Shown here: piece after piece, positions 923 to 21,381 of the stretch
Position numbering within the stretch: position 1 is the first letter of the stretch
Layout: each line of letters begins with the position of its first letter
Virus record (IMG/VR): IMGVR_UViG_3300025070_000197
Span: 1-26,200 of that record
Source of the DNA: a virus
DNA: 26,200 bases
Strand: one strand, 5' to 3'
Notes under the pieces: model-generated
What the model was told of the DNA's origin: nothing
The model's input: only the letters and a program-made list of their open reading frames with translations
Database searches by the model: none
Program-made: the position numbers and the translations under genes

Positions 923-1236
923 TAGCACTTACCTTTTTTCTGTTGCTTTGAAGCCCACATATTAGCATAAGCACTAGGATATACATCAAATTTTCTTCTT
1001 GCGGCTGCTTTACATCCTGCTGTTAATTTAGCGTATAGAGCAGAACCCATTTGTGGCGCAGCGTTTCTTGCATCTACTTTTGTTTTTAGTTTTTCCATTT
1101 TTCTTATTTTTCTACTATTTTTAGTAGCCATAGCTACATCGTTGACTTCTTGTCTATTGTCTATTGCCTGGGTGGTTATACCAGTTCCTTTGTTTGCTTT
1201 ATTTAATAATCTTTGTAATCTTTTTTCAGCACCCAT
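922..1236 (-). CDS. Small basic Cys-containing phage protein (104 aa)
   Basis: The protein has a basic, helical N-terminus (AEKRLQRLLNKANKG), a central Lys/Arg-rich segment (KNSRKIRKMEKLKTK), and a distinctive C-terminal block (AGCKAAARRKFDVYPSAYAN, then MWASKQQKKGKC at the very end). That C-terminal block, CK-x-AARRKFDVYPSAYAN-x-W, is one I recognise as recurring at the C-terminus of small and large proteins of marine phages; I know of no established function. The start overlaps the stop of the giant gene in TAATG, so translation is probably coupled. Together with the downstream 97-aa basic protein it makes a pair with related character: Lys-rich, with Trp and Cys near the C-terminus. A nucleic-acid-binding or virion-associated role is inferred from charge and position only. 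Confidence 0.8.
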   Translation of the reverse strand: MGAEKRLQRLLNKANKGTGITTQAIDNRQEVNDVAMATKNSRKIRKMEKLKTKVDARNAAPQMGSALYAKLTAGCKAAARRKFDVYPSAYANMWASKQQKKGKC

Positions 1237-4200
1237 TATTTTTTATCTTGTAATTCAATTATTTTTTTAACTCTTGCGTCTTCGTACTTTAAAGCTTTTA
1301 TTTGTTTTTTAGTAAGACCTAATTTTAATAAAGTTTCTTTTTGCTCTTTTGTATTAGTTTCTTTTTTCATTTTTAATACTTTGTCTCTAAGTATTGTTTG
1401 CGGTGTTTGAACCTCTTTATCTTTAACGCCATAATAAGGTAAACCAAGATCCCACGTTGACCAACCCATTAATAAAGCAACCTTTTGCCACTTAGCAGAA
1501 CTATCACTTGTAGCGGCTCTTAAGTTATTTATTTTTTGTATAGCTCTATCAAGCGGTACGTTTGTTAAACCTGCTAACACTTGAGCAAATGCTAAATAAG
1601 CAGGGTTATTTAAATTAAAACCTTCTTGGCTCATTTTTTCACGCTCCCAAGAAAGAGTATTAGCGCCGCTAGTTAGTTTTCTAATTTTAGAATCAAGTGG
1701 TGGTGAAAAACCAAACAAATCACTTATAGCTTTTCTAAATTCAGGTGCTCCTTTTTCTTTGTTAGCTTGTTTATATATAGTAAGTAAAGCATCTTTTACA
1801 GCAGCTACAGCAGCTCCTTGTATACCAAGACCTCTTAATAATGAATCGGCCATACCATTTGCTATTCTACCTGTTTTGTCTTCTTTTTCTTCATCTTCTT
1901 CGTTAAACGCTAAAGCAAATAAAGCATTAGATAAAGCGTTAAATATAAGGTTTTGTATTGCTGAGTAATAAACTATTTTAGATACATTTGTTTTCCAGTC
2001 ACCTCTTCCGTTTACAAGATCTTGACTAGCTCTTTTTATTATACGAGCATATTGCATTGGCGTATTAGCAAAAGCTAATATTACACGACCAGCACCTGAC
2101 GCTTGTTGTTGTGATATTTTACTTGGATTACTTGATTGCTGGCTTTCTTCTGCAATAGCATAAAAATCATCAAACGCTTGTTTTTCTGCGGCAGCCTGAT
2201 CCATACCACTTTTCATGTAAGCTTTAATTTGATTTCTATAAAACGTAGAACCACCAGCGGCAATAGCAAAACTATCTGCTATTCTTGTAAGTATAAACCC
2301 TTTGCTAAGTAATAAATTTAAAAATGCTTTTGGTTTGTTAGAACTTTCAGACACAGCGTCAGCTATTTCAGATTCACTAACGTTGATTTTTAATCCATCA
2401 CGTCTTTCAACTAAGTAAGGTGAATTCATAAGCGTCATAAAATCTTTCCAATATTGCTTTTGATTAAGTAACGCTTTACCAGCAGCTATAAGATTATTAT
2501 TACCGAAATTTATAAAATTTACTGCAGATATAGTTTGCAGCACCGCAGATCTTGTATTTAAGAACATTATAGCACCAACAGAGTTATTTAACCAGTTTAG
2601 CAATTGATCTACAATTCTTGAATTACCTACAGGTCTATTAGAACCTGACTTCATCCTACGCAATTGATCACGTAAAGCTTCTACATATCTAGGACCATAG
2701 GCAGCTTCAAGTTTGTTCATCACTTTATCTGAAAATATTATATCAACATTTTCATTAAACTCTTGCATGTATTCTTTTCTGTTAACTTTATTTATTTCGT
2801 TAACAATGTCTGATGTTATATTACCAGCTAACCAAGTTTGACTAGGTGCAGGGTAAGGTTTACCTTTTTGTATATTTATTAATTCATCTACAAAAACATC
2901 TAGCTCAGCATTATTATCTATAAAAGCATTTAATTCTTTAGCGTCTCTTTTAGATAAACCAGGAACTTTCATACCTTGTCTTGTCCACACCGCAACCCTA
3001 GCGGCTTGACCGAATGTAAACCCTCCAATACCTGTTAATTTAGATAACGACTTAGGTAACGTCTTAAGGCTTTTCTTTAATGCTTTAAAATCATTAGCGG
3101 CAGTTATTTTGGCTCTTGTTACTGCTAATTCCGCTCTATTATAAGGATCAATTAAGTTATCTTTAAAAAACTGAAATTGCGCATCACCTATTTTACCTTT
3201 ACCTAAAAATTTATATATTAAACCTACAAAATCTTCTGCAGATGGTGTTGTAAAGAAACTAAACTTACCTTTCTTAGCACCAACTGTTTGTGCTCTTGCT
3301 TTAGAAAACTCAGCTTCAGATTTTATACCTGTGCTATCTTCAAGAATATTATTTATTACTTTATCAAAAGTCTGTGACTTGCTATACTTAGCTTGTTGTA
3401 CTTTAGATTTTACATCTACTTGATCTAATATTTCTGCAACAGCTTTAACATTTTTAATAGCATCATCAGCAAAATAAAAATCATTATAACCCTCAGCTGT
3501 TTTACTTATCACCCAATTAGCTTTTGCTTGTGGTGACCCGTCTTCTAGTCCTGTAATATTTTCTAACGGTAAGTTTAAACCTATACCATCTAAAAACATT
3601 TTAATGTCTGTAGCCGCTATTTGTGGTCTAGCTGTTAACACAAATATATCTTTACTGCCAAATTTACCTTGACGTCTTAAAGCTAAATCAGCAAGTGGCC
3701 CTTTTTGAGTGCCTTTACCTACGTTTTCAAAATTATCAAAATTAAACGTAGCTCCATTTTCTTGTAGTTCACTGGCTTGCTCTGCAAACTTAGCAGCTGA
3801 TATTTCTATAGTAGTTCCGTCAGCTTTGTTAACTATAACTTTTTCTTTTGTTTTAGCTAACGTGTCGTCAAAATCAAACACGCTTATTCCTTTTGGTTTT
3901 GTATTTAAAGATCTTGAAAACTTAAGAGTTTTATCATAATCGCTTAATACGTTTATTTTTTGTATAATAGTGCTACCCACGCTTAATTTAGGTTCAAACT
4001 GCTTTTCAAGATTTTTACTTTGTTTAGCTTGAAGTTTTACTAAATCGTTAATTTTAATTTTTAAATTATTTTTAGCTTGCTTAAGCGTTTTTATTTTTGA
4101 AGTTATTTCAAATAATGCTTTTCTTTGAGCTAGTTTTGCTTCAGAATTATTTTCAAGATTTTTAGGTATTTCTACATCATAAAATTTAGCATAAGTAATT

Positions 4201-7200
4201 TTGTTTATAAAAGTTACATTTGGATCTACAGGATTATTAGCTAAATAATTATTAAAATATCTTATATCTGAATCTGGAACAACGCTCCAGTCTCCATCTT
4301 TAACAACTTGATCAAAAGCGTCTCTTAATAAAGGAAATTCATTTGACTTGCCGTTATATTTTGGTAGAATTTTATCCGCAACAAACTGATCTTTGTCGTA
4401 TGTTTGATTTAGACTAACATCAGTTTTATGAGATAAGGTTATTTGATAGTAATTGTTTTCAGCCCAATTAATCCAACCGTTTAAATTAGCTTCATATAAT
4501 GGATTGTTTATGTCAGATATAAATTGTATAGTTCTTCTTGCGAAATTTATCGCTTGGTATACATGCTCTTCAGTCCTGTTTCCTGGCACAGCTCCTTTTT
4601 CATAACCTAAAGTCATAGCGCTACTTCTTCCAAGATTGTTATTTAAATTAGAATTATAAAGAAATTCTGCGTAATATTGCAATAACTGATCTGCTTTATT
4701 TTTATTTGAAACTGCTAAATCCTTGTAAGTTTTAGCCATTATTCTAGTCATCAAGCTTAAACCTCTTTTTATAGATTTTTCATTTTCAATATTGTAATCT
4801 ATATTATCATTATTTTTAGAAATATTAAGATTGTTTAAATCATTTAACTCTTGGCTAGTAAATGGTTTGCCAGTTACTACGTTTATTTGAGAAGTAAAAT
4901 AAGTAACTTTTTTTGTTTTTGGATTACGAGTTCTTTTGTAATCAGACTTGTTTTCAGATAATTTTTTAGCAGATTTAAGCTCGTATACTTCTCCGTTTTC
5001 AATAGCTTTTTTGTTTGCTAATATATCTTCTTTGTTTTTTGTCTGGTTGGCATCGTTTATAACAGTGTTTGTAAAATCACCAGTTTTAAGGTTTTTATAA
5101 ACACTAGGTCTATTGCCATTTGTTATATTAGAGCTTTGTAAAAGAAACACAGGAAGATTTGTTTCTTCTTCAAAGTTAGATGTTATTTTTTTGAAAGAAG
5201 CAACCTTGTCTTTTTGATTAGTCATTCTAGATCCTCTAGCTTCTAATACTTCGTTTATAGCTAAAGTACCTTCTTTACCTAATTCTATAGATCTACTAAA
5301 TTTAGCGCCTGATTGTATTCTTTTTGCTTGTAAAGGCTGTGCTGTTTCCAGCATACGATTTCTAATAGTTAAATTTAATAAACCTCTAATAGTTTGACCT
5401 ACGCGATCTCTATATATAGGCTTAACAGGTTTTTCTCTGATAAGATCCATGTAATCTTTTAAGCTACCTGTTAATTCACCGTCAGTGTATAAAGCATCTT
5501 TAACGTTTTTAGGTACAAATGTACCTTTGCCAAAGTCATCTTTTAGTTTAGGTAAACGAGCATAGTCATCTTTAGCGTTTTTAAGTAAAAGTTGTTTTGC
5601 TTTCGTTAAACCTTCTGCATCTTTTTTAGTATAATTTTTTGTTTTATCAGTTATAGTTTGAGGATTTATTCCAAGTTGTTCTGCATATATAACAGCTACA
5701 TCGTTAGGAACGTCTCTAGTTTCTGAAAATTTAACATCCTGACCTTTAAAGTTTTTATTTACTGCTTCATCTATTCTAGACTCAGTATTTTTATCAAAAA
5801 CTGTAGTTTGACTAGGTTTCTTAGCTAACTTAGTATCGTCTTTTTTAGATGTGGTAGACTCATCAGCTATTTGTAATGTTCCACCATCAATACTTTTTTG
5901 TTGTTTAGCTTTTTCACCTTCTTTAAATAAAGCTTTTTTAGCATCTAGTTTAGCAAACCTAGTGTTAGCAAATATAGCTTCACCAAAGCCTTGCATGCCT
6001 ACAGGTTTTCCATCAGCTCTTTTAGCTTCAGGATTAAAGTTCATTATTCTATCTGTTAAACTTTCTATAGCTTTATCAGCTTCGGCTTTTGTAGTTGTTC
6101 TACTTCTTACGTAATTGTTTATAACACCACCTTCCTTTATCAATGCGTCAAATAAAGGTTTGTTAGCTCTAGGATCTGCTAAGAAAGCATCATATTCTTT
6201 TTTAGTAGTAATATCTTGTGGTACAAGCTTATTTATTTCTTCTAAAACTGACGACCTAGACAATTTGTCACCTGTTTTTATACCTTTACCAGCTTCTGCT
6301 AATTTTTTTGTTCTTTCAGATACTTTGCCTTCAGAAGTGTTTTTAACATACGTTTGAACAAAATTATATAAATCTTTACCGTCTTTAAATTTGAAATCGT
6401 TTGGATCTACTTGTAGTTTATCACTAAACAAACCACCAATAAAATTAGCTAGCTTTGTAAATAAACCATCTGTTGCTTGGCTGTATTTTATGTTATTTTC
6501 TTTTAAAACACTTGCAAATGTAGTAATATATTCGTCAGGATTTTTAGCTAAATATTCTGCGTCGTAGTTTGCTTCAATTCTAGCTATTACTTTGTCATAT
6601 ACAGATCTATTTTCAGATTTTAATATTTTTAAAAATTGTTCTTTTAATTTTTCAGCCTTTGCTGGATCTCTGCTAAATTCAGATTTTAGTACTTTGTGTA
6701 AAATTTCATGAATACCAGTACCTATATTACCACCATTACGCATAGCAGCCGCTAACATTTGAGCTTTATTAAGAACTATTTGCCCGCTTTTAAGCTCTAC
6801 ACCCTCAACACCTATTTCATCTATATTAGTCATTTCTTTAAAAGCAGCATCATCCTCTACAACTTCTACAGCTTGACCTGTTCCAACAGCATCTTCACCA
6901 AAATCAGTTTTACCTGTTTCTTCACCTATTTTTTTAGCTAAAGATATTTCTTCTCTTACACTTACTTCTGATAATAGTTTTAGTTTGTCGTTTTTTATAG
7001 ATCTTAATTCAGAGCTTAAACTGCTTAAAATAGATTCTCTATCTTTTTCATTTATATTATTATCATTAAGAGTAGTATCATATAATTCTCTTAAATTATA
7101 TATTTTATCTTCTTTAGCCATTAAGTCATTTTGCTCTTCTTGACTCATCTTGTCCATGTTTCTAAAATCTTCAGCCATTATCTGCTGAACTTTAGTGGCG

Positions 7201-9413
7201 TTTTCTTGTAATTCGTTTTCTAGTTTTTCTCTAACTTTAATATCTAACAAAGGACTATTTTCTAGTATTTTTCCTATTTCAATATTTCTTGTTTTTAATT
7301 TGCCTATAGTTTGGTTAGAATCTTCTGGTTGAAAAGCTCTATACATTTTAATTCCTAAACCAGGAGCTTTGTAAACAAAACCACTCATAAAAGCTCCAGA
7401 TATAAATTCGTCTTTCATACCATCAAAAAGACTAATGTCTTTTCCTAATACATATCTTTCTAAAGCTCTTTGTGAAAAACCAGCTACAGCTTCAGTAAAA
7501 CCTTCTTCAAAAGTTTCTTTACCATAAACAAAACCTTTAGTCGCCGTCCTTGTTGCTCCTTTTTTTGTAAATAAATTTCTTATGTAATCTTCAGTGCCTT
7601 GTTTTAAAGAGTTTTTACCGCTAGCTCGCAGGCCTTTTTTTATTCTATTTAATTGGCCTAAAGTTATTCTTTCGCTTAAACCTTCTGCTAGACCAGTACC
7701 AAGCGCAACTGTGTACATTTGTAAAGGTGTAATTTCTTCACCGTACAAATCTATATCTTTTTGCATACTGTTAAATGATGCTCCAGAAGAACTAGCGCCT
7801 AACAAAGGTAAGGCCCACCCGCCAGTGGTTAACATGACAGCAGTGTTTGTTGCTTGAGATCCTACCAAATGAGAACTCCACTGCCACATGCTACTCCAGT
7901 CATCTATATCACTTACGCTAATTGGCTCTGCTAAACCTTCTCTCATGTTGCTTATAGCAGTGTCAGCGCCAAAATTAGTTTTCTCTAAACCCTCCATAGC
8001 TAGTACACTTTCGTGAAGCCAAGAATCTTTATCTGTATTAACTTTAATAACATCAGCAGCCATTTCAAAAGGACTATACACCATTCTATCTATAAACTCA
8101 TCAACTCCATCAACAAAATCATACGCGCCACCAGCTAAAGCGCCAACTAGATTTACTAACCAACCTTGGTTGCGACTAACTGTGTTTAAATAGTCTGTAA
8201 TATCTTTTGATTCTCCACCTATTTCTATTTGCCTGTTCACCAAATCACCATAAGCATCGACTAAACCTTGCCTTTCTTTAAAAAGTAAATTAGCTTTACC
8301 TATTATTACGTTTGCTTCTTCTTGTGATGTTGGTTTTAATTTTTTTAAAGCTATTAATTGTTTTTCAACATTTTGTATTTTAGAATCTATATTTACAGAT
8401 GTTGCTATATTGCTTTGCGCTTCTTTGTTTAAACTACTAGCTACTAAAGCAGCGGCCTCTTCTAATCTATTTTGATTATCACCTTCAGTAAAACCATCCC
8501 AACCAGACTCTTTTTTGTTTCGCTCTATTATAGCTTCTTTTTGTCTTTGTTTAATGTACTTGTCTTGAAATATTTTTCTACTAGTATTTTGAAAATCTTC
8601 TTTTTGAGAATTATCTGCTATATATTTTAACACTTCTTGGCCCGAAGGGTTTTTATTTCCTTCTTTAAACAAATAATCTCTAGCCGCTATTTGTTCAGTT
8701 TCTTTTAATAAATTAAAATCTTTAACTTCTTTTGAATCTTTTACTAGTGTTTTATTGTTTAAATCACTAACGTCACTTGGTTTTATTTCTTCAAGTTTAG
8801 TTTTTAGTTTTTTTGCGTTTTCAACTTGCGTAGAAGTACTTTCTTCGTTTTCTATGATTTGATTTAATTCAATAATTTTATCATCTGAACCGCTTGTTAT
8901 TTTATCATAAACTGTAGTAAAAAAAGAATACGCATCACCACCAACATTGGCTAAACCTTCCTGTATAGGTTTAAAAACTTTTTCTATCGATTCAGGAACT
9001 TCGTAATCTCCTCTAGCTTGTTGATCTTCTAAAGCTTGTTGCGCTACAATATCTCCTTCTTCTTCTCTGGTAGTTAAGTCACTTATATCTTTATTTAATT
9101 GATTATATATTTCTTGTGATTCAATTGCGTATTTATCTGTAGTTTGTTGATCAAATAAAGAATCTTCTATCAATTGCTTAGCGGTTGCTAGTTCTGCAGC
9201 AGCAGTTGCCTTCTCCTCGTCTGATAATGATTTGCCATCCAAAGATTCGGATGCTTCTTGTTTTGCCGATGTTACAGTTGCATCCTGAGCCGCAACATCG
9301 TCTGTCTTTACTTCTTCTTCTTCTTCGTTTTCAAACTGTGAGGCTAGTTCTACTATTTCTCTACCAGTTATATTTTGAGATACTAAATCTTTTATATATT
9401 CTTCTCTAGTCAT
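1236..9413 (-). CDS. Giant multidomain polyvalent/ejection protein (2725 aa)
   Basis: Visible architecture: residues 1-400 are acidic and helical/coiled coil; about 410-560 holds hydrophobic Gly/Ala-rich stretches (LVNLVGALAGGAYDF, MLTTGGWALPLLGASSSG); about 870-960 has a zincin-like motif HEILH (H902, E903, H906) followed by DEYITTFA, whose Glu could be the third zinc ligand; 1838-2000 is a HAD phosphatase-like domain with DFDDT (D1847, D1849), LTARP, a Lys in SPQAKANW, and FADD; 2030-2700 resembles the C-terminal domains of large phage polyvalent proteins (LPD38-like), with hydrophobic patches near 2275-2305 and 2480-2505 and a block NPAYLAF...LTNVPLDR. Variants of K-F-S-R-S recur at domain joints. 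Its place directly behind two probable internal virion proteins suggests it is packaged and delivered with the DNA, like T7 gp16 or phage P1 DarB, perhaps also acting in the host. Domain calls are by eye; delivery is inference. Confidence 0.88.
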   Translation of the reverse strand: MTREEYIKDLVSQNITGREIVELASQFENEEEEEVKTDDVAAQDATVTSAKQEASESLDGKSLSDEEKATAAAELATAKQLIEDSLFDQQTTDKYAIESQEIYNQLNKDISDLTTREEEGDIVAQQALEDQQARGDYEVPESIEKVFKPIQEGLANVGGDAYSFFTTVYDKITSGSDDKIIELNQIIENEESTSTQVENAKKLKTKLEEIKPSDVSDLNNKTLVKDSKEVKDFNLLKETEQIAARDYLFKEGNKNPSGQEVLKYIADNSQKEDFQNTSRKIFQDKYIKQRQKEAIIERNKKESGWDGFTEGDNQNRLEEAAALVASSLNKEAQSNIATSVNIDSKIQNVEKQLIALKKLKPTSQEEANVIIGKANLLFKERQGLVDAYGDLVNRQIEIGGESKDITDYLNTVSRNQGWLVNLVGALAGGAYDFVDGVDEFIDRMVYSPFEMAADVIKVNTDKDSWLHESVLAMEGLEKTNFGADTAISNMREGLAEPISVSDIDDWSSMWQWSSHLVGSQATNTAVMLTTGGWALPLLGASSSGASFNSMQKDIDLYGEEITPLQMYTVALGTGLAEGLSERITLGQLNRIKKGLRASGKNSLKQGTEDYIRNLFTKKGATRTATKGFVYGKETFEEGFTEAVAGFSQRALERYVLGKDISLFDGMKDEFISGAFMSGFVYKAPGLGIKMYRAFQPEDSNQTIGKLKTRNIEIGKILENSPLLDIKVREKLENELQENATKVQQIMAEDFRNMDKMSQEEQNDLMAKEDKIYNLRELYDTTLNDNNINEKDRESILSSLSSELRSIKNDKLKLLSEVSVREEISLAKKIGEETGKTDFGEDAVGTGQAVEVVEDDAAFKEMTNIDEIGVEGVELKSGQIVLNKAQMLAAAMRNGGNIGTGIHEILHKVLKSEFSRDPAKAEKLKEQFLKILKSENRSVYDKVIARIEANYDAEYLAKNPDEYITTFASVLKENNIKYSQATDGLFTKLANFIGGLFSDKLQVDPNDFKFKDGKDLYNFVQTYVKNTSEGKVSERTKKLAEAGKGIKTGDKLSRSSVLEEINKLVPQDITTKKEYDAFLADPRANKPLFDALIKEGGVINNYVRSRTTTKAEADKAIESLTDRIMNFNPEAKRADGKPVGMQGFGEAIFANTRFAKLDAKKALFKEGEKAKQQKSIDGGTLQIADESTTSKKDDTKLAKKPSQTTVFDKNTESRIDEAVNKNFKGQDVKFSETRDVPNDVAVIYAEQLGINPQTITDKTKNYTKKDAEGLTKAKQLLLKNAKDDYARLPKLKDDFGKGTFVPKNVKDALYTDGELTGSLKDYMDLIREKPVKPIYRDRVGQTIRGLLNLTIRNRMLETAQPLQAKRIQSGAKFSRSIELGKEGTLAINEVLEARGSRMTNQKDKVASFKKITSNFEEETNLPVFLLQSSNITNGNRPSVYKNLKTGDFTNTVINDANQTKNKEDILANKKAIENGEVYELKSAKKLSENKSDYKRTRNPKTKKVTYFTSQINVVTGKPFTSQELNDLNNLNISKNNDNIDYNIENEKSIKRGLSLMTRIMAKTYKDLAVSNKNKADQLLQYYAEFLYNSNLNNNLGRSSAMTLGYEKGAVPGNRTEEHVYQAINFARRTIQFISDINNPLYEANLNGWINWAENNYYQITLSHKTDVSLNQTYDKDQFVADKILPKYNGKSNEFPLLRDAFDQVVKDGDWSVVPDSDIRYFNNYLANNPVDPNVTFINKITYAKFYDVEIPKNLENNSEAKLAQRKALFEITSKIKTLKQAKNNLKIKINDLVKLQAKQSKNLEKQFEPKLSVGSTIIQKINVLSDYDKTLKFSRSLNTKPKGISVFDFDDTLAKTKEKVIVNKADGTTIEISAAKFAEQASELQENGATFNFDNFENVGKGTQKGPLADLALRRQGKFGSKDIFVLTARPQIAATDIKMFLDGIGLNLPLENITGLEDGSPQAKANWVISKTAEGYNDFYFADDAIKNVKAVAEILDQVDVKSKVQQAKYSKSQTFDKVINNILEDSTGIKSEAEFSKARAQTVGAKKGKFSFFTTPSAEDFVGLIYKFLGKGKIGDAQFQFFKDNLIDPYNRAELAVTRAKITAANDFKALKKSLKTLPKSLSKLTGIGGFTFGQAARVAVWTRQGMKVPGLSKRDAKELNAFIDNNAELDVFVDELINIQKGKPYPAPSQTWLAGNITSDIVNEINKVNRKEYMQEFNENVDIIFSDKVMNKLEAAYGPRYVEALRDQLRRMKSGSNRPVGNSRIVDQLLNWLNNSVGAIMFLNTRSAVLQTISAVNFINFGNNNLIAAGKALLNQKQYWKDFMTLMNSPYLVERRDGLKINVSESEIADAVSESSNKPKAFLNLLLSKGFILTRIADSFAIAAGGSTFYRNQIKAYMKSGMDQAAAEKQAFDDFYAIAEESQQSSNPSKISQQQASGAGRVILAFANTPMQYARIIKRASQDLVNGRGDWKTNVSKIVYYSAIQNLIFNALSNALFALAFNEEDEEKEDKTGRIANGMADSLLRGLGIQGAAVAAVKDALLTIYKQANKEKGAPEFRKAISDLFGFSPPLDSKIRKLTSGANTLSWEREKMSQEGFNLNNPAYLAFAQVLAGLTNVPLDRAIQKINNLRAATSDSSAKWQKVALLMGWSTWDLGLPYYGVKDKEVQTPQTILRDKVLKMKKETNTKEQKETLLKLGLTKKQIKALKYEDARVKKIIELQDKK
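3414..3902 (-). other. HAD phosphatase domain inside the giant protein
   Basis: The segment carries all four HAD-superfamily motifs in order and spacing: motif I SVFDFDDTLAKT (nucleophile Asp and Asp+2), motif II FVLTARP (Thr), motif III Lys in GSPQAKANWV, and motif IV YFADDAIKNV (acidic pair). Complete motifs argue for an active phosphohydrolase rather than a decayed copy. Known HAD relatives in phages act on nucleotides or on 3'/5' ends of nucleic acids, but the substrate cannot be read from this sequence. The domain is bracketed by KFSRS before it and KYSKS after it. Confidence 0.8.
6534..6806 (-). other. HExxH zincin-like metallopeptidase domain inside the giant protein
   Basis: The motif GTGIHEILHKVLKSE contains HExxH in a predicted helix preceded by small residues. 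About 40 residues later NPDEYITTFASVL offers a Glu in a second helix, the layout of gluzincin-type peptidases (HExxH...E). Upstream, GQIVLNKAQMLAAAMRNGG is compatible with the edge strand and helix before such a site. Activity and substrate are unknown. Candidates from context are the giant protein itself, host-envelope proteins or host defence proteins. Confidence 0.6.
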
Positions 9414-9423
9414 TTGATTTAAT

Positions 9424-10509
9424 TTATTTAGTGCTACTCATTAGTTTTTCAGCCTTAGCTTGTCTAGCTTGCTCTAGATCAAATACAGAAGCGTCTTTTT
9501 GTACGCTAGGTATTTTGTTTGTTAAAAACTGAACTAAGTAATTTTTGTAAAAATATTCTTTGTACTTTTCTAAAAATAAAACTTTTTTATCTTGAAGCAA
9601 TGGTAAGTCTAATTCATATGACCATGAGTCACCAGCCGCATTAGCGTTTTGAACCATTTGATCGTCTTCTTCTTGGCTAGTTCCTTTAGATAAATAAACG
9701 TTCCAAGCAGCAATAGCTTCTTGCTCTGCGCTTAATATACCTGCTACTTGAGCATTAATAAAAGGAGTTACTTTTTTCTCTATTTTATCCATGTCATACC
9801 TTATTATATTTCTACCTTTACCGTTGCCTAAATCAATTATTTCATAATCAGGCTCACCGTTAAATTTTAATATAAAAGTTTCTAATATTTTAGCATCAGC
9901 ACCTAGTTTTTTATCTTCACCTATTGATTTAGGATCAAACAATTGTGACTCTACTAACAGTTCTGTCATGCTTATGTTTATGTCTGGAGTTTCAACAACC
10001 ATAGATGTGTCAGATTCTAATAAGCTTTTAAGAGCTGCGCTATTTATTACTAGAGGTTTATCAAATATAGGTCCCGTAAAAGTTAACTCTTGTGTTCCGT
10101 TTTGTAGTAGCTGTAACATTACATCGTAACCATCTGTTTTAGAAAATCCAGGTTTCTCAGAAATAATACAATTAGCAACCATAAATCCAAAGTAATTATT
10201 AGGATCATAGTTAGAAGTTTCTACTACGCTTAATTCACTCATAACGTTTTCTAAAAACTCCAATGATAATTTTGGCGCTGCTTCAAGCTGCATCAACATG
10301 TTGTTTTCTTCAATACAATTACCACACTTACCTTGGTCTATAGCTGTTTTTATTTTAGCATATTGTTTGCCAGTATCTTGGTAAGCCTTATCTAGCACTC
10401 TAAATTCAGTATCTACAGGAGAAGCTATATACCCTGGAACATAAGCCATGTTATCACTTTGCAGTAATTGTTTAATTAAAAGGTTTGTTGTTATGTTTCT
10501 ATTTTCCAT
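9424..10509 (-). CDS. Probable internal virion / structural protein (361 aa)
   Basis: I do not recognise a defined family. The protein is acidic to neutral and mostly helical, without signal peptide or membrane segment. Near the N-terminus it has a CxxC pair (QGKCGNCIEEN, about residues 61-65) and a third Cys about 55 residues later, which could bind metal, though two more ligands are not obvious. The C-terminus is helical and charged (DLEQARQAKAEKLMSSTK). It lies between the small Gly/Ala-rich protein and the giant protein, a small-medium-giant order that parallels the T7 gp14-gp15-gp16 ejection proteins. On that context I infer an internal core or ejection component. The start ATG at 10509 follows the preceding TAG by three bases. 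Confidence 0.8.
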   Translation of the reverse strand: MENRNITTNLLIKQLLQSDNMAYVPGYIASPVDTEFRVLDKAYQDTGKQYAKIKTAIDQGKCGNCIEENNMLMQLEAAPKLSLEFLENVMSELSVVETSNYDPNNYFGFMVANCIISEKPGFSKTDGYDVMLQLLQNGTQELTFTGPIFDKPLVINSAALKSLLESDTSMVVETPDINISMTELLVESQLFDPKSIGEDKKLGADAKILETFILKFNGEPDYEIIDLGNGKGRNIIRYDMDKIEKKVTPFINAQVAGILSAEQEAIAAWNVYLSKGTSQEEDDQMVQNANAAGDSWSYELDLPLLQDKKVLFLEKYKEYFYKNYLVQFLTNKIPSVQKDASVFDLEQARQAKAEKLMSSTK

Positions 10510-10512
10510 GAT

Positions 10513-11181
10513 CTACTTGTTATTGTAATAAGAACTTGCTGCGCCAGCCACACCAGATATAGCTCCTGTTAATGCTGATGTTTGATCAGCTGAAGCTTGA
10601 GCTTTTATACCTTGTTGAGTGTTTATTTGATTTTGTAATCTATTTAATTGCTGCATCTCTCTACTTTCAGTTTCACTATAAACAAACTTTTTACCCATAG
10701 CTTCGGCATCTTGCATTCTTTGTGCTTCTGTTATTTGCGCTTGTTGTAGTTTTTCTTCACCAGCTGCTCTTTTGTCTTCATTGGATTTTTCTTGTGCTTC
10801 TATATCAGCAGCAACATTTTTCTTAGACTGTAAAGCAGCTTGAGCCAAAGCAGTTGCGCCACCAGCTCCACCACCAGATTCTCTTAATGCGTCTAAAGTG
10901 TTAGCTAAAGCAATGTCAGTTTGCTCTATCTGCATGTCAGTAGCTTGCGTAGCAACAGATAAATTAGCCATAGGATTACTCATCATACCGCTTAAACTAG
11001 TCATGTCTTCATAAGGATTTATTATCTCCTGTCTGTTAGCCTCTAGCTCTTTCATTTTAGCGTTCATTCTTTTAAGCTTTCTTGCAGCTTTTCTCTTAGC
11101 TCTTCTAGCCTTACTACCACCGATAATACCACCAATAATACTAGCGCCAGCGCTTATAGCACTACCAATTAATACACTCAT
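10513..11181 (-). CDS. Probable small internal virion/ejection protein (222 aa)
   Basis: The N-terminus is a hydrophobic Gly/Ser/Ala/Ile stretch (IGSAISAGASIIGGIIGG) followed at once by a dense basic patch (KARRAKRKAARKLKR). The middle is Ala/Gln-rich and helical, with a Gly-rich hinge (ESGGGAGGATALAQAALQ). The C-terminus is a second small-residue stretch (ALTGAISGVAGAASSYY). This layout is typical of the small internal virion protein of podoviruses (T7 gp14-like), which enters the outer membrane during DNA ejection. Sequence-level homology cannot be claimed by eye. Position after the tail genes and before the 361-aa and giant proteins supports the assignment. The leader is A-rich without a Shine-Dalgarno sequence. 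Confidence 0.8.
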   Translation of the reverse strand: MSVLIGSAISAGASIIGGIIGGSKARRAKRKAARKLKRMNAKMKELEANRQEIINPYEDMTSLSGMMSNPMANLSVATQATDMQIEQTDIALANTLDALRESGGGAGGATALAQAALQSKKNVAADIEAQEKSNEDKRAAGEEKLQQAQITEAQRMQDAEAMGKKFVYSETESREMQQLNRLQNQINTQQGIKAQASADQTSALTGAISGVAGAASSYYNNK

Positions 11182-11202: not shown

Positions 11203-12669
11203 TTAATATCCATTGTTCATCACGTAGTCTGACATTACTGAAAACAATTGCTTTTCACCACCTAAATTTGTAACTAAATCTGTTGACAAAGTTCCTGTTA
11301 CATAAAATCCTTTTACGCCACTTATTTCAGAACCAAATAATATTTCTCCTGTCGAAGCGTTGCTGTTGTTTACTAAATTAGCTACGTATCTATTTTCTTT
11401 TCTATTAAAACCAGCGTAATATCTAGGTAAAGGAGGTTCTGTAGTTCCTAAAGTAGCTTGATAATTGGCTCTTACAACAGGTAACCCGTTAGCTGGATTA
11501 AATACATACTCACCATCTAATAAACTTAGCACTAAAGCTGATTCATCATTTGTTGTTATCCACTGTCCTGACGCCGGGCTTAATCCATCACCGGTTCCAT
11601 CAGACACTAATGTAGATAATTGCCAACCGCTACTTCCTTCGTAGCCTATTGTTTTAAAGTTTTTAGAAGAAACAGGTGATTCAGCGTTTAATATAAACGT
11701 AACAGAGCTACGGTAATTAGCTCCGTAAAAATTACCTCTGTTTACAGAAGTAGCATAGTGTCTGTATAGTGATTCGTTAGTAATGCTATAAAAGTTATTT
11801 CTTAGGCTAAACATTTGATCAGGATTATAATCAAAAAAGCTAGTCCAACCTTTAACACTTTCGTCAAAAGAAAGAGTATTGTAAGAAAGTAGTTTTTCAT
11901 CTAATGTGTTAACAACGTATTGATCATTGTGTATATCCCAACCTCCTATTATTTTATTTACTCGATAATTATTTAACTCATCTCTAAAATAATCTATCAT
12001 ACCAAACCTAGATATTTCATCAAGACCAGATTTAGATAATCTCATTATTACGTTATTATTTCTATCGGAAAAATATTTATTATAGCCATACACCGCAAAG
12101 CTTTCTGGATTTTTACTTATACCGTATTTACCTTGATAAGGTTGTATAACACCTATAGTTAAGTTAGAAGATGTAACAGCTGAGTTTCCTTCAGCGCTAT
12201 ATATTGCGTCTTTATCTATTAGCGCTCTACTTACTTTTAACTCTTGAAATATTGTTAAGTTAGTATCTTCTGCGTATAGTTTTTGAATTGTTCCGTTTGC
12301 AGGGTCTGCGCTTTTTGTGATATCATCTGCTACAGAAAATACATTTGTATTGTTTATACCTGTTCTTGAGTTAAATATACCAGAGTATATTAATGAATTA
12401 CCTCTTCTTACCGCATTAGGCTCTTCTTCTACTAAATAAGCTTTAGCTCCATTGTCAGTTGACAAATTATTATAACCACCTCTTATTCTAGCTTCTTCTA
12501 TTGCCCAGTTAGTGCTTCCATCTGTGTCGCTATCAACAACTACAGGATAACCACCTTTTGCTGCTGGTATACCAAAAGAACCATTCCATACGATAGTATT
12601 GTTACTTTCTTTTACGGTCTTCTTTAAAACAAAAGAGTTAAAATACTTTACTTCAACTATCGCTCCCAT
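11203..12669 (-). CDS. Tail/nozzle-type structural protein (488 aa)
   Basis: The protein is Asn/Tyr/Ser-rich and strongly beta-predicted. Blocks that I recognise as recurring in tail proteins of marine and crAss-like phages include FNSRTGINNTNVFSVADDIT, KVSRALIDKDAIYSAEGN, YGISKNPESFAVYGYNKYFSD, and GWTSFFDYNPDQMFSLRNNF followed later by KNFKTIGYEGSSGW. Such proteins form the lower tail (stabilisation or nozzle) and probably a beta-propeller-like body. The N-terminus (VEVKYFNSFVLKKT) begins without any signal. It follows the 1424-aa tail protein by a 34-base gap. In related phages I recall these blocks occurring in one chain with an N-terminal part like the 1424-aa protein, so this may be the split-off C-terminal half. 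Tail identity is fairly secure; the exact position in the tail is not. Confidence 0.8.
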   Translation of the reverse strand: MGAIVEVKYFNSFVLKKTVKESNNTIVWNGSFGIPAAKGGYPVVVDSDTDGSTNWAIEEARIRGGYNNLSTDNGAKAYLVEEEPNAVRRGNSLIYSGIFNSRTGINNTNVFSVADDITKSADPANGTIQKLYAEDTNLTIFQELKVSRALIDKDAIYSAEGNSAVTSSNLTIGVIQPYQGKYGISKNPESFAVYGYNKYFSDRNNNVIMRLSKSGLDEISRFGMIDYFRDELNNYRVNKIIGGWDIHNDQYVVNTLDEKLLSYNTLSFDESVKGWTSFFDYNPDQMFSLRNNFYSITNESLYRHYATSVNRGNFYGANYRSSVTFILNAESPVSSKNFKTIGYEGSSGWQLSTLVSDGTGDGLSPASGQWITTNDESALVLSLLDGEYVFNPANGLPVVRANYQATLGTTEPPLPRYYAGFNRKENRYVANLVNNSNASTGEILFGSEISGVKGFYVTGTLSTDLVTNLGGEKQLFSVMSDYVMNNGY

Positions 12670-12703
12670 ATTTAATTATTACTTATTTTGTTAGATATTT
12701 CCA

Positions 12704-15700
12704 TTATACAATTTCAAATTGATAACCAGTTGTATCTATATTACTAATATCTGTTATATTACCAGTGTTACCGCTAGTGCAAGTGCAATCGCTAGCCGTC
12801 CATAAAGCTCTAACAGCAGCGCTTGATGTAGGTGAAAAGAAAGCATCACCATAAGCAGGGCATGCCGCGCCTGATGGATTTGTTAATCTAGCGTTTGTTC
12901 TGTCTATTGTAATAACATTAGCACCATTAACATTGACTAATGTACTCCAAGGTACAGGAAAAATATACCAACCATTTTGTTGCGTAGGTGATGCTGATCC
13001 GTCTGTTATTTGTATTTCTACAGCTGGAAAATTATCGGCTTGAGTTTCTCCATCGCAAACTATTTGCCAAGTAATAGCTCTAACAACATTAGGTTCTATA
13101 ACCATATCAACGGTGTATACAGCGTTTACGCTAGCAATAGCGTCACTTAATCTTAAGTTAACAGTATATCTATTAGGTGGCATATTACCACCTGAACTAT
13201 TTGTAAGTATGGCTCTTTTTTGATTTGACACTACGCTACTTGGTATTGTAAAATAACCTAAATTAGTACCGTTTGGCCCTATATCAGTTGTAGGCGAAGA
13301 TCCAGTTAAATCAAAAACACTAACTATTTCCCATGTTAAATCTTGAGTTCTTAACGTAGTATTATTAGCACCATTTACACCGTCTAATGTTGCTAAAGAT
13401 TGCTCGTACCTGTTTGTGTTTATTGTAGTGCCAGACGCTGGTGTTGCTGCTGTTACAATAGGATCTACATTTTGTAAAGATACAGTTTCATTGTAAAAAG
13501 TTTCTGTCACATTAGTTCCGCTAGTTATAACTGATTTAAAAGTAATAGTAAAAGTTCTTAAAACAGCGTCATCTCCAAAAAATACATTACTATAATAAGC
13601 CGGTGTAGTTACTACATTAAAAAATCCTGAAGTTGGATTACTTAACGTAAAGTAATTATTAACATTAGTGCCGTTTCCATTTACTACAGACTGAATAACA
13701 AAACTAGTTATATTTGATGGCGATATTACAGCACCAAAGTTATCTTCAAGAGTAAAGTTAGCGCTTAATATTGATGATGTTGTAGGTAAAGCTTCTGTGA
13801 AAAGGCTAGTATTAAATGAACTAAAGTTAGCAGCGCCGTCTGAAGAGTTTAATATCAAAGAATTTAAATCACTTATTAAACCAGTGCTAGTTGTTTCCCA
13901 AAATATATCTAAAAGACTTTCTACTGGTTCAGTTTCCATAACAGCTAGGTATTGCACACCTGGTGTAGCGTCATTTACTATAGTTATTTCTGTATCAAAA
14001 GAGACTGTAACTGATTGATTTACTTTTATTTTTGCTGGTGTTTGAAAATCTATAGTAACTCCATTAGCAATATCAACAACATTACTAACAGTAACATTAG
14101 ATCCGTTTATACTTTGGACCACCGTACCTTCTGGCACGCCTGTAGCGCTAACGTATTGATTTGGCTCTATGTTAGAGCTAGATGATACGCTTATTATATT
14201 GCTTGAACTAGCGCTTGAAGATGTCGTTTGAACAACACTTGTTGCGGCTGTAAAACCTGGCGAGGCCACTAATAAGTCAGAAGGCAAGCCAACTCCTGTT
14301 ACTGAATTTCCTATAAGCGATACAGAAGTATTACCTATTACGTTTTTTAATAATATTTCATCACTAGTGGCATTTATAGCAACTTCAGCACCAACAGGTG
14401 AGTAGTTAGTAGTAGAAATTTGTCCTACTTGTTTTTCAGTACTTATTCTAGCAATTAAAGGGTTTGATTCGTATGAATAAAATTGTGGAAAATAGTTAGG
14501 TAAAGGCGGAACAACAGGATCGTAATCAAATAAATCTTGCATTGTAGATATAGTAGAAACTACATCGTCACTTTTATTAAGATAATATTGAACATTTGTG
14601 TTTGCAATCGCTGTAGTTGAACTGTTAGCAATGTTGTTTACTCTTCCAAACAAACCTACACTACTTCTAAACTGTCTTTGCTCTGGACCTACTTCGCTTA
14701 AATCTCTAGGTATTTTATTTATATTATCACTTATTAAGACAGCGTGAGATGTTTGTCCTAGTTCTAAAGCAGTATCTTCGGGATAAGCTGCCATTATTCC
14801 AGGTAAATAAACGTTATAGTATTCTTGCTCTGTTTGTTTTACAACAATTTTATAAGAATACCAACCTAAAGGATTATAACTACCACCTGGTACTCCACTA
14901 GGTAAAAGCCCTCTATACAAACCTGGCCAACCAGTAGCTGGATTAGCATTGTCTGGACCTATAGGTTGATTAAATAACACTTTTAAAGAATCTCCAGGCC
15001 ATTGATCAGTTCTTGTTCCTTCATCTAAATAAGGTGAATAAATAGTATCACCTATAAAAGTTCCATCTGTAGTTATAACTTCGTTTTTACTGCTAGATAA
15101 CAAAACTGTAGAAGTTCTTCCATATCTATCAGATAACATAACTCCAACTTGATAGTTTCTGTTTTGTTTTAACGTAGAATTAGGATACTCTACTTTTGTG
15201 ACGGTATTAGTATCAGGCCCAATAGGCGCAAAATTTATAACCGCATTGTTTGCTAAAGATACAGCTTTGTCTAATTTTATTGTGGTTGCTGTTTCTTCGG
15301 TTACAATTGCATTAGCAGGTATACCAGTACCTGTAGCTACGTCTCCTATTTTTATACCACCAGCAGGGCTTTCGTTTTGAATATTTATAGCAACACCCAC
15401 TCCAGCAGTTTGGGCTCCATTTGCTGTGGCTGTAGATAAATTTAAATTAAAATTAGATTTATCACTAACGTTTACACTGTAATCTAAACTGTCAGGCGGT
15501 GTATGTTGATTTTGAAAATTACCATAAATAACTCTATTACTAGCTATTTCTTGTGAAAAAGCTCTTACTGGTATTTTGTCGTAAACCCTAGTGAGCTCAT
15601 CCTCTGGTAGTGTTTTATATGGTTTTTTAGAAATATAATCATAAGTGAAAACATTAGGCTCTGCTGTTTGAGCTTTTATTTCTGCTATACTAATAGTGTC

Positions 15701-16978
15701 TATAACTTTAACGGCTAAACCGTTAGATTCTTTGTATAAAATATCGATTTCACTTATATTCAATTTCTCTTGTAAATCATTTTTACTAAAAGGCAAAGGT
15801 ATTCTTAACTTTATAAGATCAGCTTTATTTTCCATAAAACTTACTATAGTACTTCTATATGTATTGCTTTGATCAGTTGTTTCTGGAAAATTTAGAGCAT
15901 CGTTTTTTACATATAAAAAATACCCGTCTTGTTTTGGTATAAATGCTATTTGTGTAAATGGAGCAAATAAAGAATACTGATTGTCTTCAAACTTAAATCT
16001 ATAAGAAAACCTTACAAATTTATCTTCTAAATAATCTTCATCACCAGCAAATTGACCATCATAATAAGGATTAGGATTAAAAACTAACGTGGTGTTTTGA
16101 CTAAGAGCAGGTAAATTTGATGTAGCTGTTATTCTCCAATAAGGAGGGTCAGGGACTGGGCTAGGCGTTGTTGGCACAACATAAACAATCGAATTAACTC
16201 TTGTCCCTGTGCTAACTACATTACCTGCGCTGTTTATATAAGATATTAAAGATCCAGTACTTCCACCTGGTATTATATTGTTTTCAAGTTGATTTACGTT
16301 TATAGATAAAGCTCCACCAGAAAAAGAACCAACAGTTACAGCGCTACCACCATTAGGTAAATAAGGAGTTGTAACGTCTTGGATTGTAGTTTCATAACTA
16401 GCAGGGTTAGTCGTTGGACTTACGTCTTGCCAAAGTTCTATAGCTTGATATGGATTATATTTAGCTACAGATATTTGATCTTCTGTTGTGTAATAAGTGT
16501 TGTTAGTAGCCGCTGTTAAAACATTTATAACTCTTGGTTGATTTCTATTGTCAGTCCAAAATAAAAGATCTTCTAATAAATTAACACCATATATAGGGTT
16601 TGCAATGTTAAAATTTAAATAAGCACCACTAACTAATATAATGCTAATATTAGAAACAGTATCATGTCTTATTATAAAGTTTTGTGCAATTTTGTTAAAG
16701 CCAGCTGTAGAAGTATCGTTTGTTGTAAATAAATAAATGTAATTACTTATTTCATCAGTTAAGTATCCAATACATTTTTGACCAGTAGAACCTGTTAAAG
16801 TATTAATATTTAACAATAATTCATTACCAAGAACATTTTCTAAAGAACCAACATTAGCCCCTTCAGATCTACTGACCTGAATATTTCGAGCATCTCTATA
16901 CTCATCACTACGCATTAACCTAGCGTCGAGATCTTTGTTCATTTTACTTTTAGAAAAAGTGTTTCTTGCTTGTGCCAT
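12704..16978 (-). CDS. Large tail protein with repeated beta domains (1424 aa)
   Basis: The N-terminus (NTFSKSKMNKDLDARLMRSD, then EYRDARNIQVSRSEG and GSLENVLGNELLL) is a signature I associate with podovirus tail hub/nozzle (stabilisation) proteins. Residues 1-500 look like a beta-propeller scaffold (YLTDEISNYIYLFTTND, LLFWTDNRNQPRVINV). Three copies of a small beta unit with a G-[IV]-P core are visible: about 531-583 (TGTGIPANAIVTEE), 864-907 (VTGVGLPSDLLVA) and 921-979 (SATGVPEGTVVQSI). From about 1000 on, the chain resembles Ig/cadherin-like beta modules. The last 120 residues contain four cysteines (IVCDG, AACPAYG, DCTC) and may form the exposed tip. The start is seven bases from the preceding stop, without a Shine-Dalgarno sequence. 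A receptor-binding role for the C-terminal part is inference. Confidence 0.82.
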   Translation of the reverse strand: MAQARNTFSKSKMNKDLDARLMRSDEYRDARNIQVSRSEGANVGSLENVLGNELLLNINTLTGSTGQKCIGYLTDEISNYIYLFTTNDTSTAGFNKIAQNFIIRHDTVSNISIILVSGAYLNFNIANPIYGVNLLEDLLFWTDNRNQPRVINVLTAATNNTYYTTEDQISVAKYNPYQAIELWQDVSPTTNPASYETTIQDVTTPYLPNGGSAVTVGSFSGGALSINVNQLENNIIPGGSTGSLISYINSAGNVVSTGTRVNSIVYVVPTTPSPVPDPPYWRITATSNLPALSQNTTLVFNPNPYYDGQFAGDEDYLEDKFVRFSYRFKFEDNQYSLFAPFTQIAFIPKQDGYFLYVKNDALNFPETTDQSNTYRSTIVSFMENKADLIKLRIPLPFSKNDLQEKLNISEIDILYKESNGLAVKVIDTISIAEIKAQTAEPNVFTYDYISKKPYKTLPEDELTRVYDKIPVRAFSQEIASNRVIYGNFQNQHTPPDSLDYSVNVSDKSNFNLNLSTATANGAQTAGVGVAINIQNESPAGGIKIGDVATGTGIPANAIVTEETATTIKLDKAVSLANNAVINFAPIGPDTNTVTKVEYPNSTLKQNRNYQVGVMLSDRYGRTSTVLLSSSKNEVITTDGTFIGDTIYSPYLDEGTRTDQWPGDSLKVLFNQPIGPDNANPATGWPGLYRGLLPSGVPGGSYNPLGWYSYKIVVKQTEQEYYNVYLPGIMAAYPEDTALELGQTSHAVLISDNINKIPRDLSEVGPEQRQFRSSVGLFGRVNNIANSSTTAIANTNVQYYLNKSDDVVSTISTMQDLFDYDPVVPPLPNYFPQFYSYESNPLIARISTEKQVGQISTTNYSPVGAEVAINATSDEILLKNVIGNTSVSLIGNSVTGVGLPSDLLVASPGFTAATSVVQTTSSSASSSNIISVSSSSNIEPNQYVSATGVPEGTVVQSINGSNVTVSNVVDIANGVTIDFQTPAKIKVNQSVTVSFDTEITIVNDATPGVQYLAVMETEPVESLLDIFWETTSTGLISDLNSLILNSSDGAANFSSFNTSLFTEALPTTSSILSANFTLEDNFGAVISPSNITSFVIQSVVNGNGTNVNNYFTLSNPTSGFFNVVTTPAYYSNVFFGDDAVLRTFTITFKSVITSGTNVTETFYNETVSLQNVDPIVTAATPASGTTINTNRYEQSLATLDGVNGANNTTLRTQDLTWEIVSVFDLTGSSPTTDIGPNGTNLGYFTIPSSVVSNQKRAILTNSSGGNMPPNRYTVNLRLSDAIASVNAVYTVDMVIEPNVVRAITWQIVCDGETQADNFPAVEIQITDGSASPTQQNGWYIFPVPWSTLVNVNGANVITIDRTNARLTNPSGAACPAYGDAFFSPTSSAAVRALWTASDCTCTSGNTGNITDISNIDTTGYQFEIV

Positions 16979-19923: not shown

Positions 19924-21381
19924 TTATAATCCTTGGAATAAAACGAAGTTGTTAGCAGCTTGCGTTACTAAACATCTTTCTGATAGGAAGTTAACTTGCA
20001 TTGCATCAAGCGTAGAAGTCATTGCTCCTCCAGCACCACCAGTTAACCATGATTTCATTCTTCTGTCGTCACCTTGAGAAGCTCTATATCTTACGTGTAA
20101 GAAAGGTCTTCTAATGTTAGTACCTAAGATTTGATCATAAACTGTAGATGTTCCAGCAGGAACTAATACACCTTCGATTGAATTAATACCAGCGATAGCA
20201 CCTCTTGTAGAAGCATCGTTTAAGTATTTCCAGTCAGTTTTATAGAAATCATAAGAACCTCTTCTAAATCCTGAGAATCCAAGATTTAAAGCCATTTCTT
20301 CTGAATTTTCAAATAAACCGAAAGCAGTACCACCAGCGAAACCACCAGAGATAGAAGCTAACATATCGTCAAAATCAAGAGATGTTTGTCTCTGTAAGAA
20401 TAACATGTTTTCTTCGATAGCTCCTTGAGTATCTAGGTTTTTAAGTATTGCATCAAATTCATCAAGTCCAGCAGCAGCAGTAAATCCTACTTCTACATTT
20501 CCTCTGTCTCTAATAGCAGCAAATAAACCTTGTGTACCTGGTAACATATCATTACTATATGCTCCTGCAGCACCGTTAGCGTTAGCGTTTAATTCACCTT
20601 CAACCATTGCCATTTCTAAGTAATCTTCGAAACGTAATCTTGTTTCAGATTCAGCTTTTAAATACCAAAGGTATCCAGAAGCACCGTCTTCAGTAGCAAC
20701 TTCAACCCAACCGATTTGAGCCATATCAGATCCAGTAACAACGTACTGATCTCTTATGATCACTGGTGAGTTAGAAAATTGTGTGAAATTAGGATCAACA
20801 GATACTCTTTCGGCAGAGTTTCCTACTCCTGCACCAATAGTTGTTCCTTTAGTATAATCAGAACCGTAAACAAATAATTTAATTGTTCCAGTACCAATAG
20901 TGATTCCTTGTGCATCAAATGTTGCGTTAGCAAACGGCTGAACTGTTACGTTTCCAGCAGCTCTAGCTGTAACAATACCTTTTCCTTCAGCTCCTGTAGC
21001 AGGATCTAAAAGTACAACAGTATCATTTATAGATATAACATTTACTATACTTGGTGCATTAACCGGAATTGTAACAACTGACGCTAATCCAGCAGCAGCA
21101 TTACCACCTGCAGCTACAGTACATCCATTGTAAGATATATGTAATCTATTTTGTTCAGACCAAATTACTTGATCAGATGTCATTGGCATTTCAGCGCCAA
21201 CCATTCTTAAAAAGCCAGATAACGTTCTGTTTCCATAACGCTCTACTTCTTGTTCGTAAATTTCTGGTAAATATTGTTGTGCAAAGTCATTTGCTCCACC
21301 GTTAAATGCTAAATAAGCAGAAGGTGATGGAGTTTGAGTTGGACTTGGTACAATACTACCAAATTGTGGAGATAAACTCAT
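19924..21381 (-). CDS. Major capsid protein (485 aa)
   Basis: Identified by position (after portal and scaffold), size and composition: Gly/Ala/Asn-rich, no signal or membrane segment. It starts with a Pro/Ser/Thr linker (SPTQTPSPSAYLAFNGG), then a helix (FAQQYLPEIYEQEVERYGN) like the N-arm and first helix of HK97-fold capsids. About residues 110-175 form a beta-barrel-like insert (INDTVVLLDPATGAEGKGIV, IGTGTIKLFVYGSDY). A long helix segment follows (AESETRLRFEDYLEMAMVEG) and a C-terminal beta region (TNIRRPFLHVRYRASQ). Codon choice includes more TTC, TAC and CGT than neighbours (for instance the RFEDY stretch), as expected for the most highly expressed virion protein. A hairpin follows the stop. 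HK97 fold is from family knowledge, not proven here. Confidence 0.88.
   Translation of the reverse strand: MSLSPQFGSIVPSPTQTPSPSAYLAFNGGANDFAQQYLPEIYEQEVERYGNRTLSGFLRMVGAEMPMTSDQVIWSEQNRLHISYNGCTVAAGGNAAAGLASVVTIPVNAPSIVNVISINDTVVLLDPATGAEGKGIVTARAAGNVTVQPFANATFDAQGITIGTGTIKLFVYGSDYTKGTTIGAGVGNSAERVSVDPNFTQFSNSPVIIRDQYVVTGSDMAQIGWVEVATEDGASGYLWYLKAESETRLRFEDYLEMAMVEGELNANANGAAGAYSNDMLPGTQGLFAAIRDRGNVEVGFTAAAGLDEFDAILKNLDTQGAIEENMLFLQRQTSLDFDDMLASISGGFAGGTAFGLFENSEEMALNLGFSGFRRGSYDFYKTDWKYLNDASTRGAIAGINSIEGVLVPAGTSTVYDQILGTNIRRPFLHVRYRASQGDDRRMKSWLTGGAGGAMTSTLDAMQVNFLSERCLVTQAANNFVLFQGL

Follow-up and report, generated by a model that had tools for sequence, protein, structure and literature searches.

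Self-processing by zincin metallopeptidases has been proposed for the polyvalent proteins of phages by Iyer et al. 2017, who cite the processed DdrB of P1 and describe for the zincins of these proteins an HExxxH variant and a layout of helices and strands similar to the one reported below (PMC5512222). The same work notes that the N4 vRNAP, which also carries a zincin, is packaged uncut, and its main text contains no HAD or phosphatase domain (PMC5512222). For crAss001, mass spectrometry finds gp45, gp46, gp47, gp49 and gp50 in virions (PMC10172136). Similarly, gp101 of the Cellulophaga phage phi40:1 is annotated as a 'structural protein' and virion protein from experimental MS/MS proteomics.

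The window analysed here, 26,200 nucleotides spanning positions 1 to 26,200 of the IMG/VR record IMGVR_UViG_3300025070_000197, represents the late module of a marine, crAss-like podovirus of Bacteroidota. Its colinear gene order runs from the large terminase, portal, major capsid protein and ring-type proteins to a muzzle protein in two ORFs, a 222-aa gene, a 361-aa gene and finally a giant gene, the last large gene of the module. The major capsid protein (19924..21381, minus strand) matches phrog_13704 at 5e-88 and is up to 48% identical to its counterparts in Bacteroidota phages; its relatives comprise named phages, all with Bacteroidota hosts, and one spring metagenome record. The N-terminal part of the split muzzle protein (12704..16978, minus strand) matches Pfam crAss_MUZ (1.4e-13) and residues 1-155 of crAss001 gp44, while the C-terminal part (11203..12669, minus strand) matches crAss_MUZ (2.5e-8), Pfam MUZ_C (1e-6) and residues 1200-1296 of gp44. 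ORFs similar in size to these two (11203-16978) occupy the same place in three other loci (L009, L010 and L028). The 222-aa gene (10513..11181, minus strand) and the 361-aa gene directly before the giant gene (9424..10509, minus strand) lie in cargo positions, in the order of crAss001 gp45 and gp46 upstream of gp47, and no sequence match was found for either. The giant gene (1236..9413, minus strand, read from 9413 to 1236) is one intact ORF with an ATG start and no internal stop, encoding the 2725-residue polyprotein recognised in the original prediction; features of this protein are given below as residues with their minus-strand coordinates. Directly downstream (629-1236) lie the genes for two small and very basic proteins, 99 and 104 aa long.

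Searched at its whole length, the giant protein has no useful match in Pfam, PHROGs, the PDB or phage records, including a tblastn comparison with 50,697 phage records, and the signal of its enzyme domains emerged only from alignments and domain slices. A first scan of IMG/VR recovered 29 relatives, and a scan with an alignment of the C-terminal part yielded at least 494 confirmed matching stretches. Intact relatives range from about 2200 to 3600 aa in length. Across 20 of them the last 900 residues, comprising the HAD domain and a C-terminal module, retain 38-88% identity, whereas the first 1800 residues have mostly diverged to 13-27%, which indicates that the protein is modular. Split genes in two relatives (L017 and L029) were considered as natural fissions at domain edges and rejected, since the missing residues continue in other frames; a third split gene (L023) also looks like a frameshift and was left out of the evidence. 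Matches in bacterial genomes were likewise set aside as indicators of hosts, these being MAG contigs that are not trustworthy.

Delivery of the giant protein in the virion, as had been suggested for it from comparison with packaged and injected phage proteins, is well supported. The N-terminal core (residues 345-830; 6924..8381), which would be the ejection or structural part, is common to gp101 of Cellulophaga phages. Residues 345-814 align with phi38:1 gp101 at 24% identity over 477 aa (E 3e-10, in a single comparison with SEG on), and matching landmarks occur in the same order, the similarity being weak and confined to the N-core; the phi40:1 version of this homologue is the one detected by MS/MS. 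Weaker matches were obtained to gp18 of Flavobacterium phage elemo and to Maribacter phage Panino. The late module is also colinear with crAss001 gp43-gp47, and the giant gene has the late position of Crassvirales cargo, following the muzzle and the cargo genes. Comparison of crAss001 gp45-gp50 with profiles A1, A4 and A5 of the giant protein gave no significant sequence match. A PHROG exonuclease match was seen at 1703-1862 of crAss001 gp47 (L117, 18120-25145), which is annotated as an RNA polymerase subunit. Because of the late-module synteny and the gp101 homology, the giant protein is most likely a packaged, ejected polyprotein, with the packaging of this very protein deduced from sequence and analogy.

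All four motifs of a HAD phosphatase had been read in the original prediction, and the corresponding domain (residues 1839-2008; 3390..3899) is borne out by VIA fold matches, PHROG 415 and the Pfam DUF2608 and HAD families. In alignments of about 61-88 rows the catalytic residues are essentially invariant: D1847, D1849 and T1851 of motif I (DFDDT, 1847-1851; 3861..3875) in all 88 rows, T1927 of motif II (within LTAR, 1926-1929; 3633..3635) throughout the HAD alignment, and both K1964 of motif III (3522..3524) and D1983-D1984 of motif IV (3462..3467) in 87 of 88 rows, the remaining row being a gap. An AlphaFold model of residues 1541-2725 has a pLDDT of 81.5, and nearly all 50 rows returned for it by VIA are solved structures of HAD fold (best Z 10.4, rmsd 2.4 Å over 110 residues), with matches covering residues 1839-2003, whereas Foldseek alone gave no useful match. 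Judged from motifs I-IV and the modelled Rossmann-like HAD fold, the domain is complete. Two other assignments were discarded: weak matches of Pfam 'Pox_A28' at the HAD domain were judged chance, and a link to virion RNA polymerases was dropped as the DFDDT motif is that of a HAD and no polymerase match was seen.

By profile comparison the domain belongs with PHROG 415, whose name, 'polynucleotide kinase', is a transferred label. PHROG 415 matches 51 of 61 members of the HAD set, at best with 3e-8, and the giant protein's own HAD at only 0.013. In two further loci (L127 and L128) this PHROG is also matched, at 1e-11 and 8e-15, by stand-alone HAD proteins of 168-187 aa; these belong to the same HAD family with 28-29% identity, but are small separate proteins.

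The HAD domains of relatives offer a further indication of function. Motifs I and II are separated by 77-79 residues in most relatives, and by insertions of about 45, 140 or 200 residues in some. The 200-residue insertion corresponds to a P-loop kinase in which Walker A is intact and both an NQD motif and lid-type arginines are present. One scan detected this nested kinase at 29 loci, plus three in which it is nested but cut at the contig end, two with the kinase just after the HAD (L147 and L160) and seven lacking a readable frame; earlier scans had found seven loci, with two records common to both sets. Nested-kinase loci comprise L021, L022, L048, L049, L055, L058, L119 and L129-L169 (except L147 and L160), and in L019 the same kinase (75% identity) lies upstream of the HAD, near residue 800. 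When mapped onto a tree built from the C-terminal module, the nested kinase switches between states at least seven times. One 50-kb record, IMGVR_UViG_3300025131_000066 (L021, L129 and L132), carries two C-terminal parts of giant genes with the kinase on opposite strands, 88% and 100% identical to the query, a pair that reflects either paralogy or chimeric assembly. In the giant ORF of L095 the same HAD site holds a different insertion, of about 140 residues, so that this site seems to accept several domains; the 45-residue insertion was seen there in L006, L017, L046 and L050-L052. The giant protein of the window has no P-loop and hence no partner 5'-kinase domain, and would accordingly hold the phosphatase half only.

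The kinase profile matches best, among PDB entries, 171-aa chains named 'Metallophosphoesterase' (4gp7 and others; 1.3e-4), which we take to be the kinase domain of Pnkp, an RNA-repair enzyme of Clostridium thermocellum. Weaker PDB matches follow in the order PezT/zeta and T4 PNK, adenylate kinase profiles also match, and PHROG 505, 'polynucleotide kinase', is matched at 8e-13. That kinase and HAD are joined in three layouts suggests a common task, end healing in the case of these families, and the pairing in relatives thus points, at the level of sequence, to a role on nucleic-acid ends. That the phosphatase might act on such ends had been offered as a guess, which now has real backing in that the domain falls in PHROG 415 and that relatives carry a kinase inside their HAD. 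An ATP-dependent DNA ligase gene occurs in 11 of the 21 records of relatives. The RNA ligases T4 Rnl1, Rnl2 and RtcB were not found in 21-29 records of relatives, possibly fragments and searched for Rnl1 without a positive control, except for one match at a site where DNA ligase scores better. The ligase pattern leans weakly towards DNA ends and against RNA repair.

The kinase could instead be of zeta type or a small-molecule kinase, and an unlikely but serious alternative is that the substrates of the ejected HAD, and of the kinase in relatives, are signal nucleotides or small molecules, so that, for example, a nucleotide-signalled defence would be silenced. HAD enzymes are often nucleotidases, and nucleotide-taking class B/C acid phosphatases are among the VIA matches; the kinase matches to zeta/PezT and adenylate kinase profiles point the same way, and counters to nucleotide signalling have been predicted in polyvalent proteins (PMC5512222). 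Against this, the nearest phage families of both domains (PHROG 415 and 505) are named polynucleotide kinases, and end-healing enzymes are built by pairing a 5'-kinase with a HAD phosphatase. Caution on the substrate is nonetheless appropriate, as HAD enzymes hydrolyse many substrates.

The second enzyme is a gluzincin-type metallopeptidase domain (zincin; residues 789-1035; 6309..7049), identified from an AlphaFold model and VIA matches. The peptidase-like HEILH and downstream DEY pointed out previously withstood comparison with 89 non-redundant relatives that have 12-73% identity to the query in this region: in HEILH (residues 902-906; 6696..6710) H902 is retained in 96% and E903 and H906 in 100% of rows, as is E961 (6531..6533), the predicted third zinc ligand within DEY (D960-E961-Y962). 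HExxH is present in 95 of 104 long relatives against 0.4% of shuffled copies and is therefore not a chance occurrence; together with the HExxxH variant, seen in three relatives, the count rises to 98 of 104. One relative (L109) lacks both the HExxH and the LTAR motif. Around 4 of 89 relatives (L046, L072, L079 and L082) carry glutamate in place of H902 (EExFH) while keeping E903, H906 and E961, so zincin activity is not always kept, and judging from their sequence these four are possibly inactive.

In the zincin model (pLDDT 83.8) a long helix and three strands are accompanied by the HExxH helix and a glutamate helix. All nine best VIA-align matches are gluzincin-type metallopeptidases or their relatives, with a top Z of only 4.8, and Foldseek alone returned no significant match, so the fold call rests mainly on the invariant residues and the agreement of the top matches. 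The same zincin family is recognised in elemo gp18 (51 bits). With the HExxH, a third glutamate ligand and a modelled zincin fold, we regard the site as real, with peptidase activity predicted. Clustering of the zincin and HAD residues in active sites, as had been anticipated, we infer from the fold matches and conservation.

A possible clue to what the zincin does comes from a recurrent short motif. The giant protein contains four candidate processing sites of the form K[FYL]S[RK][ST], where 0.05 would be expected: KLSRS at the end of the zincin domain (residues 1050-1054; 6252..6266), KFSRS at residues 1371-1375 (5289..5303), KFSRS just before the HAD (residues 1831-1835; 3909..3923) and KYSKS just after it (residues 2009-2013; 3375..3389). 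The motif occurs 59 times in 104 relatives (5 expected) and nine times in 555 other ORFs (2.1 expected), counts that are inflated by homology and refer to a motif picked after looking. The density of K[FYL]S[KR] in relatives is highest in the pre-HAD linker and after the HAD (4.5 and 6.5 per 1000 aa) and zero inside the HAD. The strict motif is absent from 69 of the 104 relatives, and also occurs in divergent ones such as L021. We treat the position of K[FYL]S[RK]S at domain edges, which would fit processing, as a lead only.

The peptidase and phosphatase together had originally been cast as a delivered device for counter-defence or host takeover, and in that role the zincin would be an effector against host proteins, with the giant protein as a multi-warhead device and no processing involved. 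The top VIA row for the zincin is indeed the N-terminal region of a known effector protease (Z 4.8), zincins are able to act on other proteins, and the N4 vRNAP, zincin included, enters the virion without being processed (PMC5512222). This reading appears improbable all the same, as a single zincin whose position varies little (about 1009 +/- 100 residues before the HAD) in a multi-module protein is the published self-processing pattern, P1 DdrB is known to be processed (PMC5512222), and no host target is suggested. After the polyvalent-protein model, the domain is better read as a processing protease (PMC5512222). A counter-defence function of the giant protein is possible.

Between the two enzymes lies a variable middle (residues 1036-1555; 4749..6308) in which no Pfam or PHROG domain was found in the giant protein and, across most relatives, no conserved match except for a patch at 1052-1225. 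It is followed by a conserved domain (residues 1556-1810; 3984..4748) with an (E)EHxxPA-type motif, of which the EH (E1616-H1617; 4563-4568) is nearly invariant in two separate alignments of diverged N-terminal parts. This EH domain precedes the HAD in most relatives and has a predicted core of two strands and a helix; it is modelled with high confidence except at 1674-1691, and possibly has a nuclease-like fold.

The most conserved part of the giant protein is its C-terminal helical module (residues 2013-2725; 1239..3377), which is modelled as all-helical and has no convincing Pfam or PDB match. Of the polyvalent-type C-terminus proposed earlier, the conserved helical module stands, whereas Pfam LPD38 was unmatched in a comparison in which no positive control gave signal either. 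A profile link to polyvalent Pfam domains was also sought through MPTase-PolyVal, which had no match in 21 records, this being one profile and short of the 12 clades described. The hydrophobic patches noted along the chain proved weak, with a Kyte-Doolittle window mean of 1.3 or more in three segments only, all C-terminal. In L054 the C-terminal module is kept while HAD motifs are not readable. That the giant protein is chiefly structural, as an entry channel or internal scaffold in which the HAD is a leftover or serves structurally with no role as a phosphatase, might be argued from the annotation of relatives as 'structural protein', the high conservation of the C-terminal module and its retention in L054, but is quite improbable given that both enzymes have kept all their catalytic residues unchanged among deeply diverged relatives and that the HAD is repeatedly accompanied by a kinase whose Walker A is intact.

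We thus favour, with a probability of roughly 0.45, the reading that the giant protein is an ejection polyprotein which its own zincin probably processes and which delivers a polynucleotide-end-healing HAD phosphatase for a crAss-like marine podovirus. It would be produced late and kept in the virion until its ejection, together with the DNA or before it, its N-terminal core being the shared ejection part. The zincin (about 845-1035) would most likely cut the polyprotein into pieces, before or after entry, and one freed piece would be the HAD phosphatase (1839-2008), of the polynucleotide 3'-phosphatase kind. This could restore clean 3'-OH ends on nucleic acid damaged at entry, either at nicks in the phage DNA or on RNA such as tRNA cut by host nucleases, while the C-terminal helical module may be a structural or docking part. 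Delivery is the well-supported element of this scheme, and zincin processing and the phosphatase substrate are put forward as proposed extensions of it. Overall, what the original prediction observed is confirmed and its interpretation is partly supported.

Phage DNA is most exposed just after entry, and most known repair and counter-defence enzymes are made later. It is possible, and we suggest it tentatively, that this phage family ships an end-healing enzyme in the virion inside a self-processing polyprotein, so that breaks suffered at entry are mended before expression begins, with the 5'-kinase nested in the 3'-phosphatase in many members. If true, a packaged end-healing enzyme would represent a new class of protection, prepared in advance and widespread among marine phages. 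The nested kinase-in-phosphatase, the most unusual part of the finding, would be a novel way of building a textbook enzyme pair. For the giant 'structural proteins' of Cellulophaga and Flavobacterium phages in culture, the comparison further suggests both a location in the virion and a function.

Among known systems, crAss001 gp47 (PMC10172136) lies in the same place after the muzzle and two cargo genes and is similar in size (2341 aa), but has HEAFH near its C-terminus (residue 2157) as opposed to the mid-protein zincin found here, and no HAD motif pattern was seen in it. The gp101 proteins of Cellulophaga phages phi38:1 and phi40:1 (Pervagoviridae) share the genome place and a homologous N-core, but are 1691 aa long with neither HExxH nor HAD motif. 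Elemo gp18 (3694 aa, annotated structural protein) occupies the same place and shares the zincin, but lacks the HAD and a C-terminal module of the giant-protein type. Polyvalent proteins are likewise giant multidomain products of late genes that join a zincin to unrelated enzyme domains, and as in the giant-protein group they carry HExxH or HExxxH and have modules swapped between relatives (PMC5512222). With two unrelated enzyme domains, zincin and HAD, in one late-gene polypeptide, the giant protein fits the definition of a polyvalent protein in layout and, by analogy, would work like one. T4 Pnkp is a small enzyme with kinase and phosphatase domains in tandem. To our knowledge, a 5'-kinase nested inside a 3'-phosphatase domain occurs in no described enzyme, and no report of a nested kinase-in-HAD was found in the literature searched, of which coverage was partial. 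Relatives of the giant protein thus resemble T4-type Pnkp in pairing a HAD phosphatase with a PNK-like P-loop kinase, but differ in placing the kinase inside the HAD and the pair within a giant putative virion polyprotein, of which the window's copy carries the phosphatase without the kinase.
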